Assembly: GCA_014376765.1 (NCBI GenBank) | Contig: JACMQX010000155.1 | Span: 1 to 54,271, forward strand | Direction of reading: 5' to 3' | Source: Ramlibacter sp. | GTDB lineage: Bacteria > Pseudomonadota > Gammaproteobacteria > Burkholderiales > Burkholderiaceae_C | DNA: 54,271 nucleotides | Part shown: piece by piece, positions 16,062 through 23,700 of the stretch | Position numbering within the stretch: position 1 is the first letter of the stretch | Layout of the letters: every line of letters begins with the position of its first letter | The notes under the pieces: model-generated | Database searches by the model: none | Seen by the model: only the letters and a program-made list of their open reading frames with translations | What the model was told of the DNA's origin: nothing | Position numbers and translations under genes: made by a program

Positions 16062-17717
16062 TCAGTCGCCTGCGTAGATATCGACGTCCTTGGTTTCCTT
16101 GATGAACAGCGTGCCGATCACAAAGGTCGCGCCGGCAATGATGATGGGATACCACAGGCCGTTGTACATGTTGCCCGTCTGCGCAACGATCGCGAATGCC
16201 GTGGTGGGCAACAGCCCGCCGAACCAGCCGTTACCAATGTGGTAGGGCAGGCTCATTGACGTGTAGCGGATGCGCGTGGGGAACATCTCGACCAGCATCG
16301 CCGCGATAGGACCGTAGACCATCGTCACCAGAATGACCAGGTAGGTCAGGATGGCGATGACCATCAGCGTGTTGGTCTTGGCCGGGTCAGCTTTGCTCGG
16401 ATAGCCGGCTGTCTTCAGGTCGTCTGCAATGAGCTTCCTGAACTCGGCATCACGCTTTTTCAGGTCGTCCGGTGCCATGCCCTTGCTGCTGTAGCTGGGG
16501 ATGGCAGTCTGGCCAATCTTGATGGTGGCAGGCGTTCCGGCTGGGGCAGCCACGTTCTCGTAGCTCACCGACGCGCCGGCCAACACCTGTTTGGCAATGT
16601 CGCAAGAGCTGGTGAACTTGACCGTGCCGGTGGGGTTGAACTGGAACGAGCACTCATTCGGGTCAGCGGTGACGATCACCTTATTTTTCGCCTGCGCAGC
16701 GTAGAGGTCGGGATTGGCCGCCTTGGTCAGCGCTTCAAACACGGGGAAGTACGTAAGGACCGCAATCAGGCAACCGGCCATGATGATGGGCTTGCGGCCG
16801 ATCTTGTCCGACAGGGTACCGAAGATCAAAAAGAACGGCGTGCCAAGGATCAGTGAAGCCGCAACATAGAGGTTGGCCGACGCGCCATCCACCTTGAGTG
16901 CCTGCGTCATGAAGAACAATGCATAGAACTGGCCGGTGTACCAGACCACGGCCTGGCCGGCGGTCAGGCCGATCAGTGCCAGGATCACGATCTTCAGGTT
17001 CTTCCATTGGCCGAAGGATTCAGTCAGAGGCGCCTTGGAGGTCTTGCCCTCAGCCTTCATTTTCTGAAATGCGGGCGACTCGCTGAGACTCAGACGGATC
17101 CAGACGGAAATAGCCAGCAGCAGGATCGAGACCAGGAAAGGAATGCGCCAGCCCCAGTCGGCAAAGGCGGCTTCACCCAGCGCCGTGCGGGTTCCCAGGA
17201 TGACCAGCAGGCTGAGGAACAGGCCCAGCGTGGCTGTGGTCTGAATCCATGAGGTGTAGGCGCCGCGCCTTCCGTGCGGTGCATGCTCGGCAACATAAGT
17301 GGCCGCACCACCATACTCACCGCCGAGTGCCAGGCCCTGCAGCAGACGCAGCACGATGAGGATGATCGGCGCCGCAACGCCAATCGTTGCGTAGTTGGGC
17401 AAGATACCCACGATGAACGTGGACAGGCCCATGAGCAGAATGGTGACCAGGAAGGTGTATTTGCGGCCGATCATGTCGCCGATGCGGCCGAAGAAAATCG
17501 CGCCAAAAGGACGCACGATGAAACCCGCCGCGAAGGCCAGCAAGGCAAAGATGAAGGCCGAGCCTGAATCCAGGCCGCTGAAGAATTGCTTGGCGATGAT
17601 GGCCGCCAGCGATCCGTACAGGTAGAAGTCATACCACTCGAATACGGTTCCTAGTGACGAAGCAAAGATGACTTTGCGCTCCTCCGGTGTCATGGGGCGT
17701 GCAGCTGCTGTGGCCAT
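16062..17717 (-). CDS. MFS transporter, metabolite:H+ symporter (MHS) family, with a periplasmic insert
   Basis: 551 residues. Seen: MTPEERKVIFASSLGTVFEW and YDFYLYGSLAAIIAKQFF at the start, FGAIFFGRIGDMIGRKYTF (loop 2-3 motif), GLALGGEYGGAATYVAEHAP and FGTLSDKIGRKPIIM, all typical of MHS symporters (proline/betaine, alpha-ketoglutarate, shikimate). Between helix 9 and helix 10, residues ~329-448 form a ~120-residue extramembrane segment with Cys356 and Cys372 that ordinary members (~430 residues) lack. By topology it faces the periplasm. Substrate unknown. It stands alone, with its own terminator. Confidence 0.9.
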   Translation of the reverse strand: MATAAARPMTPEERKVIFASSLGTVFEWYDFYLYGSLAAIIAKQFFSGLDSGSAFIFALLAFAAGFIVRPFGAIFFGRIGDMIGRKYTFLVTILLMGLSTFIVGILPNYATIGVAAPIILIVLRLLQGLALGGEYGGAATYVAEHAPHGRRGAYTSWIQTTATLGLFLSLLVILGTRTALGEAAFADWGWRIPFLVSILLLAISVWIRLSLSESPAFQKMKAEGKTSKAPLTESFGQWKNLKIVILALIGLTAGQAVVWYTGQFYALFFMTQALKVDGASANLYVAASLILGTPFFLIFGTLSDKIGRKPIIMAGCLIAVLTYFPVFEALTKAANPDLYAAQAKNKVIVTADPNECSFQFNPTGTVKFTSSCDIAKQVLAGASVSYENVAAPAGTPATIKIGQTAIPSYSSKGMAPDDLKKRDAEFRKLIADDLKTAGYPSKADPAKTNTLMVIAILTYLVILVTMVYGPIAAMLVEMFPTRIRYTSMSLPYHIGNGWFGGLLPTTAFAIVAQTGNMYNGLWYPIIIAGATFVIGTLFIKETKDVDIYAGD

Positions 17718-17869: not shown

Positions 17870-19939
17870 TCAAGTGGGTTTGCGCGGCCTGTCGCCGATG
17901 CTGATCGCCCAGGCAACCAACAATCCCAGCGGCACGCCAAACACACCTGCGGAAACCGGATGGATGCCAAACCACAAGTCACCGCCCGATGGCAGGCCTG
18001 AATAGGATCGCAGCGGTCCGGCATTAAGCAGCATGTAAGCCAGGGTGACGCCCAGCCCCGACAGCATGCCGGCCACCGCACCACGCCGGGTCGTGCCCTT
18101 CCAGAAAATGCCAAGGACCATGACGGGCACAAAAGCCGAGGCAGCCAGCGAAAAAGAGGCCGAGACGAGCGGCAGGATTTCAGCGGGCTTGAGTGCCGCG
18201 ACAAAGGCGGCCACCATGGCAACCGCAAGCAGCGCGAACTTGGAGAGGATCACGCGATGCTGCGGCCTCACCGGGCGGGTCGTCTCAGCAAAGTACATGT
18301 CGCGCACCAATGCATTGCTGATCGTGAGCAACAGGCCGTCGGCTGTGGACAAGGCTGCAGCCAGCCCCCCGGCTGCAACCAGGCCGGACAACACATACGG
18401 CAGGCCGCCCAGTTCAGGCGTTGCCAGCATGATGAGGTCTGCGCCCAGGCGGATTTCTCCCCATTGCAAAATTCCGTCACCGTTGACGTCGCTCACCGAG
18501 ATCAAGGACGCGTCCACCTTGGCCCACTGCGCGATCCAGGCCGGCAAGGCTTCGAAGCTGCTGCCCACCAGCCCCTGCATGACCTCGAACTTCACCAGTA
18601 CCGCCAGCGCCGGCGCGCTCGCGTACAGCAGGGCAATAAAAAAGAGCGACCAGGCCACAGACGTTCTGGCTTCGCGTACCGTGGGCGTTGTGTAGTAACG
18701 CGTGAGCAAATGCGGCAGCCCCGCTGTACCCACCATGAGGCAGAACATCAGCGCCAGAAAATTCAGCCGCGAGTTGCTGAACTTTTCACGCTCAAGGGGC
18801 GTGCCGTTCGGGTCCCCGCTAAACGCCTGGCTGTGCAGCGGCGATCCGCCCAGCGGCTTGGCGCGCTCGTAGCTTTCGCGCATGGCCCGGGTCCACAGTT
18901 CGCGGGCGCTCGCCGCGTCATGCGGCAAAGCCGCAAGCTCCCGGCTGGCAGCCACGATGACGGCCAGGTCGGCGCCCTTGGCCTTGAGGGCACGGATGCG
19001 ATCCTGGCCCGCCAGCTTCTCGCGCAGCAAGGCGGCGTCAATGTCCTGCAGCCGTGCTTCATAGTCGTGCGCACGGCGGAGAAATTCAGCGCTCACCTGC
19101 TTTTCTGCGGGCGAGTCGATCAACTGCTTTTCCAGCTCGGCAATTTTCTGCAGCTGCGTGCCGTACACAAGAGGGGCCAGCGGGTTGCCAAGCTGCTTGT
19201 ACGCCAGCCATGAAACAGGGATGAGAAACGCCATCAGGAGCACCACGTACTGCGCCACCTGCGTCCAGGTGATGGCCCGCATGCCGCCGAGGAATGAGCA
19301 CAGCAACACCCCTCCCAGGCCCAGCAGGATGCCAATCTCGAACTGCACGCCCGTCAGGCGCGACGCAATCAGCCCAATGCCATAAATCTGCGCCACCACA
19401 TAGGTGAATGAACACAGCACCGCAGCCCCCGCTGCCAGGCGGCGTGGCCACCGCCCGCCAAAACGCAGCTGGAAATAATCCGGCACGGTGTACAGGCCCA
19501 GGCGGCGAAGGTGCGGCGCCACCAGCAGGCCGACCAGACAGAAGCCGCCCGTCCAGCCCAGGATGTAGGCCAGGCCCCCAGGTTGCCCGTCCGAGCCCGA
19601 AAAGCCTTGCAAATAAAGACCTCCTGCGAGGCTGATGAATGATGCAGCGCTCATCCAGTCGGCGGCTGCTGCCATGCCGTTGTACATGGCCGGGATGCGC
19701 CGGCCGGCCACGTAATACTCCTCCGCATCGCTGGTGCGGCCGTAGATGCCGATGCCGGCATAAACCATCACGGTGAAAAACAGGAAGATGGGGCCGATCC
19801 ACTGGCGGGAGAGACCTTGCTCCTCTGCCCACGCCATGAGGGAAAGAAACGCAACAAGTCCCAATGTGAACGTCGCCAGTGTCCGGTGAAGGCGCCGCTT
19901 GTAGGCCGCGTATTGCGCAGGCGGCCAGGCGTCAGGCAT
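17870..19939 (-). CDS. Sodium:solute symporter, VC_2705/ActP-like, with coiled-coil insert and EF-hand loop
   Basis: 689 residues from ATG 19939, behind CAGGAG; it overlaps the DUF4212 stop by 8 bp. The SSS core is clear: YYVAGRRIPAMYNGMAAAAD, WMSAASFISLAGGLYLQGFS, GYTVPDY-like YTVPDYFQLRFGGRWPRR, GGMRAITWTQVAQY, and ALSTADGLLLTISNALVRD. Residues ~258-386 form a charged, helical insert (IAELEKQLIDSPAEKQ, RLQDIDAALLREKLA). Residues 484-495, DVNGDGILQWGE, fit a 12-residue EF-hand calcium loop. Relatives with DUF4212 partners carry acetate or other monocarboxylates; the substrate here is inferred. Confidence 0.9.
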   Translation of the reverse strand: MPDAWPPAQYAAYKRRLHRTLATFTLGLVAFLSLMAWAEEQGLSRQWIGPIFLFFTVMVYAGIGIYGRTSDAEEYYVAGRRIPAMYNGMAAAADWMSAASFISLAGGLYLQGFSGSDGQPGGLAYILGWTGGFCLVGLLVAPHLRRLGLYTVPDYFQLRFGGRWPRRLAAGAAVLCSFTYVVAQIYGIGLIASRLTGVQFEIGILLGLGGVLLCSFLGGMRAITWTQVAQYVVLLMAFLIPVSWLAYKQLGNPLAPLVYGTQLQKIAELEKQLIDSPAEKQVSAEFLRRAHDYEARLQDIDAALLREKLAGQDRIRALKAKGADLAVIVAASRELAALPHDAASARELWTRAMRESYERAKPLGGSPLHSQAFSGDPNGTPLEREKFSNSRLNFLALMFCLMVGTAGLPHLLTRYYTTPTVREARTSVAWSLFFIALLYASAPALAVLVKFEVMQGLVGSSFEALPAWIAQWAKVDASLISVSDVNGDGILQWGEIRLGADLIMLATPELGGLPYVLSGLVAAGGLAAALSTADGLLLTISNALVRDMYFAETTRPVRPQHRVILSKFALLAVAMVAAFVAALKPAEILPLVSASFSLAASAFVPVMVLGIFWKGTTRRGAVAGMLSGLGVTLAYMLLNAGPLRSYSGLPSGGDLWFGIHPVSAGVFGVPLGLLVAWAISIGDRPRKPT

Positions 19940-20198
19940 CGGGCAGGTCTCCTGCCGCCTGCTGTGCATCGTCAATCCGGTTCATCGCCCAGGCATAAAA
20001 GGCGAGGATGGCAATGAAGACCAGCACGGCGCCCTGCGCGGCCATCCAGTAATTGAAGGGCCAGCCGGCCACCATGAAGTCGAACTCTCGCGCGAAAAAG
20101 CAGAAGCCGAATGACACAGCGGCCCATAGCGCCAGCAGCGACGCCTTCAGGACCAGCACCTGGGTGCTGAGTTGTTCGGTTGCCGAGGCAGCTTGCAT
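19932..20198 (-). CDS. DUF4212 small subunit of a sodium:solute symporter
   Basis: 88 residues with two membrane helices (LLALWAAVSFGFCFF and MAAQGAVLVFIAILAFYAWA) around FAREFDFMVAGWPFNYWM, a hallmark of DUF4212/YjcH-like proteins. These small proteins are encoded just before VC_2705-type symporters and are thought to act with them. The 8-bp overlap with the symporter start shows translational coupling. Confidence 0.9.
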   Translation of the reverse strand: MQAASATEQLSTQVLVLKASLLALWAAVSFGFCFFAREFDFMVAGWPFNYWMAAQGAVLVFIAILAFYAWAMNRIDDAQQAAGDLPDA

Positions 20199-20262
20199 GC
20201 GCGAATCATCGCATCAGCGCCGGGCGCAGCGACTAGGTATTTGCTAGCGCCCTGCCCTCATG

Positions 20263-22662
20263 TCATGCCTGCCTGGTCGCCAGCTGTTTCCAGGTTTCAA
20301 TCACGCTGTCCGGGTTCAGCGAGATGGACTCGATGCCTTCATCCGCCAGCCACTGGGCAAAGTCCGGATGGTCGCTGGGGCCCTGGCCACAGATGCCCAC
20401 ATATTTGCCTTGCGCCTTGCAGGCCTTGATCGCCCGGCTCAGCAGCGCCTTGACGGCGGGGTCGCGCTCGTCGAAGTCAGCTGCGAGCAACTCGAGCCCG
20501 GAGTCGCGGTCCAGTCCCAGGGTCAGCTGCGTGAGGTCGTTGGAGCCGATCGAGAACCCGTCGAAGTACTGGAGGAACTCATCAGCCAGGATGGCGTTGC
20601 TTGGCACCTCGCACATCATGATGATCTTGAGGTCCAGCTCACCGCGCCTGAGCCCGTGCAGCGCCAGCAGCGAGGTCACCTTTTCAGCCTGGCCCAGCGT
20701 GCGCACAAAGGGCACCATGACTTGCACATTGCCAAGGCCCATGTCGTTGCGCACCCGCTTGATCGCCTCGCATTCCATCGCGAATGCCACACCGAAGTCG
20801 GCGCTGATGTAGCGGGCAGCACCGCGGAAACCAAGCATCGGGTTCTCTTCCTCCGGCTCGTAACGGGAGCCGCCAATAAGCTTGCGGTATTCATTGGACT
20901 TGAAGTCGCTCATGCGCACGATCACGGGCTTGGGCCAGAACGCAGCTGCAATCGTGGCCACGCCTTCAGCCACCTTGTCGACATAAAAAGCACGCGGCGA
21001 GGCATGGCCCCGCGCCACTGACTCGACCGCCTTCTTCAGGTCGGCGTCCACATTGGGATAGTCCAGGATGGCCTTGGGATGCACCCCGATGTTGTTATTG
21101 ATGATGAATTCCAGCCGGGCCAGGCCCACGCCCTCATTGGGCAGCTGGCAGAAGTCAAACGCCAGCTGGGGGTTGCCCACATTCATCATGATCTTGGTTT
21201 TGATGTCGGGCATGGTGCCGCGCTCCACCTCGGACACTTCGGTCTCGATCAGGCCGTCGTAGATGAAGCCGGTGTCTCCCTCGGCGCAGCTCACGGTGAC
21301 CAGCGTGCGGTCCTTGAGCATGCTGGTCGCATCACCGCAGCCCACCACGGCGGGTATGCCTAATTCGCGCGCAATGATGGCGGCGTGGCAGGTACGCCCG
21401 CCCCGGTTGGTCACGATCGCGCTGGCGCGCTTCATGACGGGCTCCCAGTTCGGGTCGGTCATGTCAGTGACCAGCACGTCGCCGGCCTGGACCTTGTCCA
21501 TTTCGCTGATGTGGCTCACCAGCCGGACAGGCCCGGTGCCGATTTTCTGGCCAATAGCCCGGCCCTCGGCCAGCACGGTGCCCTTGCCCTTGAGCTTGTA
21601 GCGCAACTCGGCCTTGCCTTCCTGCTGGCTTTTGACCGTCTCGGGCCGGGCCTGCAGGATGTACAGCTGCCCGTCGGTGCCGTCCTTGCCCCATTCGATG
21701 TCCATCGCACGTCCGTAGTGCTCTTCAATCACAAGGGCGTAGCGGGCAAGTTGCTCCACATCGGCATCGGTCAACGAATAACGGTTGCGCTGCTCGGCAG
21801 GCACGTCTGTGGTCTTGACCAGCTTGCCGGTACCAGCTTTTTCTTCGGCGCTGGAAAACACCATCTGGATCAGCTTGGAGCCCAGGTTGCGCCGGATCAC
21901 GGCCCGCTTGCCGGCCCGCAGCATCGGCTTGTGGACGTAGAACTCATCCGGGTTCACGGCGCCCTGCACCACCGTCTCGCCCAAGCCGTAGCTGGAGGTG
22001 ATGAAGACCACCTGGTCAAAGCCGGACTCGGTGTCGATGGTGAACATCACACCCGCCGCACCCAGGTCAGAACGTACCATGCGTTGCACGCCGGCGCTCA
22101 AGGCGACATCCGTATGGGCAAAGCCCTTGTGGACCCGATAGCTGATGGCGCGGTCGTTGTAGAGCGAGGCAAATACTTCCTTCATCTTGTGCAACACATC
22201 TTCAATGCCAACAACATTGAGGAATGTTTCCTGCTGACCCGCGAAGGACGCATCGGGCAGGTCCTCGGCTGTTGCAGAGGAACGCACTGCAAAGCTGGCC
22301 TGCGTGTTTTGCGCGCTGAGGGTGGCGAAGGCTTCACCAATGGATTTTTGCAGGTCGGCTGGAAAGGGCTGGCCTTCCACCATGGCGCGAATCTCGGCGC
22401 CGACTAGCGCCAGGGCGCGGACGTCTTCAGTGTCCAGTGCAGCCAGGCGGGCGTTGATGCGCTCGTGCAAGCCGTCATGCTTGAGGAATTCACGGAACGC
22501 GTGGGCCGTTGTGGCAAAACCGGTGGGCACGCGCACGCCTTGCGGCAGCTGGGAAATCATCTCGCCGAGGCTGGCGTTCTTGCCGCCGACCGACTCGACG
22601 TCGGTCATCCTCAGGTTTTCAAACGGTACGACCAGGGCGGTCGGGCTGAATAATGCAGACAT
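20263..22662 (-). CDS. ppsA: Phosphoenolpyruvate synthase
   Basis: 799 residues from ATG 22662, behind GGAG. Seen: [54 protein letters not shown] and ETFLNV (ATP-grasp domain), the swivelling phosphohistidine domain [20 protein letters not shown], and the C-terminal PEP/pyruvate barrel with [27 protein letters not shown] and [15 protein letters not shown]. It makes PEP from pyruvate and ATP for gluconeogenesis. The divergent ppsR encodes its regulator. The frame open to 22743 is ignored because the family starts here. Confidence 0.97.
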
Positions 22663-22691
22663 GGGGAAACTCCAGAAGTTGAAACCGGGTC

Positions 22692-22727
22692 TGCGAACAG
22701 GGCGGCGCCCAAGGCGCCTGCTTCGCA
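22692..22727 (-). promoter_or_regulatory. Bulged hairpin in the ppsA leader
   Basis: TGCGAA (22692-22697) pairs with TTCGCA (22722-22727), CAG with CTG, and GGCGCC (22704-22709) with GGCGCC (22713-22718) around CAA. It lies about 30 bases upstream of the ppsA start. No T-run follows, so it is not a plain terminator; a translation- or stability-related structure is possible. Confidence 0.4.
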
Positions 22728-22875
22728 CAGGCTGGCGCTGCAACTTTGTATTTGTTGGAATGGGTCAGCGCAAGCCATGAAAAATGAGCGGTATCGCAGT
22801 AAGTTTGGATAATGAACCGATTGTAGGTGGCGCATAAATCATCACACGCCTGCGCAACCGAAAGAACATTTGAAC

Positions 22876-23700
22876 ATGCTGCCTTCCCGCACAGTCTTTT
22901 TCATCTCCGACGGTACGGGCATTACGGCCGAAACATTTGGCAATGCCATCATGGCCCAGTTCGAGCTCAAGGCCCGCCATGTGCGGCTGCCCTTCATCGA
23001 CAGCGCCGACAAGGCTCACCAGGCTGTACGCCAGATCAATCACACCGCCGTGCTGGAAGGCAAGAAGCCGATCGTTTTCACGACATTGGTGAACATGGAA
23101 GTGCTGGGTGTCATCAAGGCGGGCTGCCAGGGCATGCTGCTGGACATGTTTGGCACCTTTGTGCGGCCGCTTGAAACCGAGCTGGGCTTGACCTCCAACC
23201 ACCGCATCGGCCGCTTCAGCGATGTGAGCAAGAGCAAGGAATACAACGACCGCATAGAGGCTATCAACTTCAGCCTGTCACATGACGACGGGCAGTCAAA
23301 TCGTGACCTGGAAAGTGCGGATGTGATCCTGGTGGGCGTGAGCCGCAGCGGCAAGACGCCGACCTCGCTTTATCTGGCGATGCAGTATGGCCTCAAGGCC
23401 GCGAACTATCCCCTGATCCCTGAGGATTTTGAGCGCCGGCAACTGCCGCCTGCGCTGGTGCCGCATCGCCAGAAAATATTTGGTCTGACGATCCTGCCCG
23501 ACCGCCTGAGCGAGATCCGTAATGAACGCCGGCCAAACTCCAGATACGCCTCGATCGAGAATTGCCGTGCGGAAGTCAGCAATGCCGAAGCGATGATGCG
23601 CCGCGCGGGGATACGCTGGCTGTCGACGACGACCAAGTCGATCGAGGAGATCGCGACGACGATCCTCCAGGAAATCATGCCGGACCGGCTGACTTACTGA
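22876..23700 (+). CDS. ppsR: PEP synthase regulatory protein (DUF299 bifunctional kinase/pyrophosphorylase)
   Basis: 274 residues from ATG 22876 (a TTG at 22870 would add two). Seen: RTVFFISDGTGITAETFGNA, the P-loop-like VGVSRSGKTPTSLYLAMQYG, then KAANYPLIPEDFE, GLTILPDRLSEIRNERRPNS and STTKSIEEIATTIL. Members phosphorylate (ADP-dependent) and dephosphorylate a threonine of PEP synthase. The gene faces ppsA across 213 bp, so enzyme and regulator probably share regulatory DNA. Confidence 0.95.
   Translation: MLPSRTVFFISDGTGITAETFGNAIMAQFELKARHVRLPFIDSADKAHQAVRQINHTAVLEGKKPIVFTTLVNMEVLGVIKAGCQGMLLDMFGTFVRPLETELGLTSNHRIGRFSDVSKSKEYNDRIEAINFSLSHDDGQSNRDLESADVILVGVSRSGKTPTSLYLAMQYGLKAANYPLIPEDFERRQLPPALVPHRQKIFGLTILPDRLSEIRNERRPNSRYASIENCRAEVSNAEAMMRRAGIRWLSTTTKSIEEIATTILQEIMPDRLTY

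Follow-up and report, generated by a model that had tools for sequence, protein, structure and literature searches.

The closest described relatives of the locus analyzed here are the VC_2705-type symporters, whose large and small subunits are recognized by the profiles TIGR03648 and TIGR03647 (DUF4212), respectively. An excerpt of PMC7858070 terms the VC2704/VC2705 pair a putative cation-acetate symporter, while the excerpted text of PMC6429828 stresses that the substrate of the TIGR03647-linked symporter is unknown and ties a riboswitch candidate to TIGR03647. No literature was found under the name DUF4212. For solute:sodium symporter (SSS) family transporters in general, excerpts of the review PMC7918813 state that closure of the outer pathway is aided by the loop joining core helices 7 and 8, and that in PutP this loop, external loop 4, is the gate, with the acidic residue Glu311 at its tip crucial for closure. 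These excerpts mention no metal at the PutP gate, and the word calcium does not occur in the review. In the human dopamine transporter, a LeuT-fold protein, Zn2+ held partly by loop 4 restrains that loop; according to the excerpted account (PMC11324517), the site consists of His, Asp and Glu, bridges loops 2 and 4, is inhibitory and has no contiguous motif. Dx[DN]xDG calcium loops form a further point of comparison (PMC3123361), and the main text of that paper contains none of the words symporter, transporter, solute or permease. We found no published description of a calcium-type loop in the VC_2705 family, a weak absence given that subscription journals were thinly covered. Raba 2014 and Bracher 2016 are reportedly the sources for the role of loop 4 and Glu311 in PutP.

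To place the present locus among these systems, we analyzed a Ramlibacter sp. stretch of 54,271 nucleotides (the window), which carries a gene pair of the VC_2705 type on its minus strand (Table 1). The large-subunit gene starts at the ATG at 19939 and encodes a 689-residue product that scored 651.7 bits with TIGR03648 (cut-off 320.75) and 174.4 bits with the Pfam SSF model. The original prediction had coupled this gene to DUF4212, and a small-subunit gene was indeed found directly upstream, overlapping the large-subunit gene by 8 nt and matching TIGR03647 at 75.5 bits (cut-off 26.05) and DUF4212 (PF13937) at 71.1 bits. Structure comparison gave Z scores of 37.1 to CHT1 (9bim) and 35.8 to SiaT (5nva); by its predicted fold the large subunit is a member of the SSS family (TC 2.A.21), with putative Na+ coupling. 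The cation/acetate symporter ActP belongs to the same superfamily and perhaps has similar substrates, but the window protein reached only 138.4 bits with the ActP model (TIGR02711) against a cut-off of 1099.25, and in the paralogues that we judge to be ActP-like, loop 4 is short and lacks the motif described below.

Table 1. Features of the symporter locus and its neighbors in the window.
Feature	Coordinates	Strand	Basis
Large subunit, VC_2705-family (TIGR03648) sodium/solute symporter, 689 aa + stop	17870..19939	-	TIGR03648 score, SSS fold
External loop 4 (residues 458-514), joining core helices 7 and 8 and containing the calcium-type loop	18398..18568	-	AF2 helices/strands
Calcium-type loop DVNGDGILQWGE, residues 484-495	18455..18490	-	Read from translation
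Helical insert of 138 residues (252-389), predicted periplasmic	18773..19186	-	Alignment, AF2, K/R count
Small subunit, DUF4212/TIGR03647, 88 aa	19932..20198	-	Profile scores
Phosphoenolpyruvate synthase PpsA, ORF (true start may be internal)	20263..22743	-	NF005057, 1247.3 bits
PpsR regulator of PEP synthase	22870..23700	+	NF049928, 405.5 bits (cut-off 350)

The nearest named loci among the best 80 of 592 confirmed stretches came from Ramlibacter, Caenimonas and Acidovorax (76-79% identity). A DUF4212 profile built from the named loci detected the small subunit in 68 of the 80, located before the large-subunit gene in 60, directly after it in 5 and further on in 3; the remaining 12 had no DUF4212 match within 3 kb or up to the contig end. 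The five loci with the match directly 3' of the large-subunit gene (L150, L161, L162, L164 and L166) are of the Rhodocyclales type. At eight loci (L105, L109, L110, L118, L133, L141, L157 and L172) a PpsA match lay just upstream of the large subunit with no DUF4212 gene in between, which suggests loss or relocation of the small subunit there. For L105, L118 and L133, a DUF4212 match ~1.6-1.7 kb beyond the end of the large-subunit gene points to a second symporter copy, and in genome G133 two large-subunit genes do occur, separated by 2 kb.

The large subunit had been predicted to contain a 12-residue EF-hand loop with D, N, D and E as ligands at residues 484-495, and this stretch, DVNGDGILQWGE, was present in the 689-residue product, with D, N, D, G and E at positions 1, 3, 5, 6 and 12 of a calcium loop. 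When the window was translated in all six frames (108,538 residues), the strict pattern D.[DN].DG.....[DE] matched once, and its chance expectation in one protein of the same composition was 2.6e-5; a chance origin was therefore ruled out. The large subunit was modeled with AF2 from an alignment of the window protein and 77 relatives (pLDDT 91.7, pTM 0.91; block pLDDT of 96 and 95 across residues 481-500). The model places external loop 4 between helices 421-439/441-457 on one side and 515-549 on the other and predicts two short helices within it (467-475 and 503-510), with strands at 480-482 and 496-498 on either side of the calcium-type loop; the model contains no metal. Lys and Arg were concentrated on the inner side, with 23 in 113 inner-loop residues versus 6 in 114 outer-loop residues when the insert was left out and the loop borders were set by hand. 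Together with the helix count, this distribution predicts a periplasmic location for both external loop 4 and the insert. The possibility that the calcium-type loop is buried in a membrane helix was ruled out on the basis of the AF2 model, which locates it in external loop 4.

The EF-hand assignment itself stood only in part: the 12-residue ligand pattern is there, but the helix-loop-helix is not, since strands flank the loop and no Pfam EF-hand domain was detected in the large subunit up to an E value of 5. The predicted site is thus better described as a Dx[DN]xDG loop. No second motif with which an EF-hand pair could be formed was found in the six-frame translation of the window. The window loop resembles the Dx[DN]xDG calcium loops of PMC3123361 in linear motif, spacing and acidic position 12, but differs from them in its setting, the external loop 4 of a membrane transporter. 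It lies in the same loop of the same fold as the PutP gate, where the acidic tip residue Glu311 matters for closure, but the PutP excerpts mention no metal.

Conservation of the loop was assessed with genome-derived proteins, named loci and plasmids. Among 205 unique SSF proteins in the pooled set, 171 had DxNxD, 20 had a Cys-X13-Cys pair and 14 had neither. For the 192 family-type proteins the corresponding numbers in the same external loop were 171, 20 and 1, with none having both, so that the two features were mutually exclusive, while all 13 SSF proteins outside the family had neither. The 171 were selected by D.[DN].D, and Asp at positions 1 and 5 is therefore a product of selection; among them, position 3 was Asn in all 171, position 6 was Gly in 154 and position 12 was Glu in 165, the remaining 6 having Gly (4 proteins) or Asp (2 proteins) there. 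The non-Gly residues at position 6 occurred in 17 proteins, including several nearest relatives, and the variation at positions 6 and 12 suggests that some family members may bind metal weakly. One of the 171 (L101) scored 281 bits, below the TIGR03648 cut-off, and carries the loop in shifted form; L193, just above the cut-off at 327.3 bits with only the first part of the profile matched, had neither the loop nor the Cys pair.

Closer to the window protein, the named loci, which were found with alignment A1 and in which close relatives are over-represented, had D, N and D at positions 1, 3 and 5 in 80/80 cases, Gly at position 6 in 72/80 and Glu at position 12 in 76/80. Within A1 (18 chosen rows, L100 and L101 left out), D484, N486, D488, G489 and E495 were invariant down to 35% identity. 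Six positions were scored in the plasmid-borne members sampled (11 fetched of 20 records found), and all 11 had D, N, D, G, E and D there. A short loop 4 without the motif characterized the 12 SSF paralogues below the family cut-off (L182-L191, L198 and L199), which we judged to be ActP-like, as well as a second SSF protein of the window genome (L197, 489 residues), which we guess to be PutP-like. Thus, among the proteins examined the motif appears to mark the VC_2705 family and not SSS transporters generally. A loop special to this lineage was ruled out by these counts (80/80 named loci, 171/192 family-type and 11/11 plasmid-borne proteins); far from being absent in close orthologues, the loop occurs in most of the relatives examined and thus looks like a built-in part of the gate instead of a peculiarity of the window protein.

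The manner in which the loop is conserved bears on whether it holds a metal at all. Metal binding is predicted from sequence and model, some members differ at positions 6 and 12, and the acidic turn could be kept for non-metal reasons, DxNxDG then serving as a hydrogen-bonded turn that loop 4 needs in order to fold or to make contact with DUF4212. We consider this decidedly improbable in view of the alternation of invariant and variable positions: in 81 sequences, entropy was 0 at positions 1, 3 and 5 but reached 1.47 bits at position 2 and 2.19 bits at position 4, with 0.32 at position 12 and 0 at Asp501, which is the pattern expected of metal ligands. In insert-free members, furthermore, the distance from DxNxDG to a conserved Asn-Glu varies, and the downstream Glu is retained despite tens of residues inserted before it. 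A role in DUF4212 contact is also countered by the 12 of 80 loci lacking a DUF4212 match within the 3-kb flank or up to the contig end, as D, N and D are kept in all 80.

In one clade the DxNxDG loop is replaced by a pair of cysteines. Genomes G490, G211, G397 and G413, which belong to two families outside the class of the window and which we presume to be alphaproteobacteria, encode four proteins scoring 643-664 bits with TIGR03648 in which loop 4 contains two cysteines but lacks DxNxDG. Matches at E <= 1e-150 were obtained in 15/61 and 5/60 genomes of those two families, giving 20 loci, 3 of them already known. The cysteines were 14 positions apart in 19/19 of these loci once L217, which ends inside the loop, was left out, and Cys-X13-Cys replaces the DxNxDG loop in L100, L194-L196, L203-L216 and L218-L222. 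We infer that the loop-4 Cys pair forms a disulfide.

Such a substitution is relevant to whether a bound ion would act as a signal or as a fixture. A calcium sensor, in which occupancy would follow periplasmic Ca2+ and open or close the outer gate so that uptake tracks external calcium, would be well placed in external loop 4, and a loop-4 metal does modulate another LeuT-fold transporter (the dopamine transporter, in the excerpts of PMC11324517). The Cys-X13-Cys clade is nevertheless easier to reconcile with a fixed staple than with a reversible sensor, and the window protein has one isolated site and no paired EF-hand. External Ca2+, moreover, is usually no fast signal for such bacteria. We therefore regard a sensor as unlikely and favor, as the probable role of the loop, a periplasmic metal staple, probably of Ca2+, which would give the outer gate of a two-subunit monocarboxylate importer its shape and for which the Cys pair would be a substitute.

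The second feature to which attention had been drawn, a charged helical insert of ~130 residues (258-386 in the first reading), was confirmed at residues 252-389, between core helices 5 and 6, with 20 K/R and 20 D/E and AF2 helices at 255-274, 277-298, 300-320, 325-336 and 342-360. It is true, as was also claimed, that relatives of ordinary size (~570-620 residues) do without it. The insert is not next to the calcium-type loop, however: the two lie in different external loops, 95 residues apart (389 to 484). At the insert site, 110-168 residues were present in 80/80 of the best named matches versus 39-56 in insert-free members, and none of the 11 plasmid-borne members had the insert. The order to which the window belongs has both kinds, with ~600- and ~700-residue frames above the cut-off, and both occur in genome G463 at a distance of 4.6 kb (L085, which has 40 residues at the site, and L093, which has 140). 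Outside the class of the window, 130, 112 and 91 residues were found at the site in L091, L092 and L094, reflecting either transfer or older descent. On a tree built without the insert columns, more than 85 residues at the site appeared as a single change; this was the only result used from the tree, and it is taken with caution, the tree having been made by a quick method from 73 hand-chosen rows with 19 of 70 branches open and very long end branches for L101 and L193. The insert is a clade trait, mostly but not only betaproteobacterial.

Whether the loop and insert act together as a single lineage-specific module gated by calcium or a partner, as the original prediction proposed, can be judged from how they are distributed. 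Both are predicted to be periplasmic, and in motif-bearing proteins external loop 4 is shorter with the insert (59-63 residues) than without it (57-139), a comparison that is confounded with phylogeny. Yet 34 of the 171 proteins with a DxNxD loop have no insert, so the loop can occur independently of it, and the insert, common to all 80 best named matches, does not make the combination a special variation of the window protein. The insert is also far less conserved, with a mean entropy of 2.02 bits versus 0.76 for residues 72-250 (81 sequences). Modeled alone (141 residues, pLDDT 88.2, pTM 0.69), the insert matched no entry of the PDB library in Foldseek at E <= 0.001, a result that is no proof of a new fold; a known domain at this site thus found no support. 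A joint module is accordingly very hard to credit, and relative to the VC_2705 family, which the window protein matches in family score, gene pair, SSS fold and calcium-type loop, the 138-residue insert is the difference, seen in one clade.

The neighborhood of the pair offers clues to its substrate. In the window the symporter pair comes after ppsA, and a PpsA match lay upstream of the symporter in at least 25 of the 80 named loci (3-kb flanks); acs was near the pair in 3 of 11 plasmid loci, 2 of the 11 being without annotation. On the basis of these neighbors (ppsA, PpsR and acs), our best guess for the substrate is a small monocarboxylate, namely acetate, pyruvate or lactate. The downstream MFS gene was rejected as a conserved partner, occurring in 1/80 named loci. 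Its product (16062-17717, 551 aa) is of the metabolite/H+ symporter type, below the cut-off of the model, and its translation seemingly has an extra ~100 residues with two cysteines after residue 336. As for the riboswitch candidate tied to TIGR03647, Rfam at gathering scores yielded only two tRNAs in the window, though Rfam may omit the candidate, and positions 20150-20500 gave one chance-level match at E <= 5. ARAGORN called a tRNA-Arg at 20803-20896 (minus strand) inside ppsA without Rfam support, which is probably false.

A complete DUF4212 and VC_2705-type pair was also observed on a 4266-nt IMG/VR contig (L201, positions 125-2205; 662 bits with TIGR03648), with the symporter loop DFNGDGILQLNE and adjoining PHROGs matches to a DNA helicase, a peptide deformylase, a UvsY-like mediator and a tail tube; L201 is likely a phage-borne transporter. 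A phage collection queried with its large subunit returned 27 records, all at <60% identity (22-30% among the 20 matches listed). A first viral scan had also given a partial match, L202, and L201 was the sole find of a second viral scan.

Returning to the metal staple, the role we propose would run as follows. The gene pair would encode a two-subunit SSS symporter for a small monocarboxylate, in which external loop 4, helping to close the outer pathway, has the Dx[DN]xDG loop placed between the two short helices of loop 4. One divalent ion, most likely Ca2+ and normally bound at periplasmic levels, would be held by Asp484, Asn486, Asp488 and Glu495 together with a main-chain carbonyl close to position 7. 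By analogy with the PutP loop 4 gate and the Zn2+ site of the dopamine transporter, we infer that Ca2+ would fix the tip of loop 4; so stapled, the gate could fold and seal. In one clade the Cys-X13-Cys disulfide would do the same job, and the 138-residue insert would be a clade-specific helical cap, dispensable for the calcium-type loop. A broader scenario, in which Ca2+ occupancy sets the outer gate throughout this widespread bacterial family of monocarboxylate symporters and makes carbon uptake dependent on external calcium, a dependence that the disulfide-locked clade would have lost, is speculative and improbable.

What is left as a general finding, as judged from alignments and models, is a putative metal-type loop that a symporter family conserves in its outer gate and for which a Cys-Cys pair is the natural replacement. 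The loop 4 motif may serve as a feature for recognizing the VC_2705 family, and it would add the gate of a membrane transporter to the known settings of Dx[DN]xDG loops. As loop 4 closes SSS transporters toward the outside, a conserved metal-type site at this position, together with its Cys-Cys replacement, would provide a direct test of what gate stiffening does to transport.
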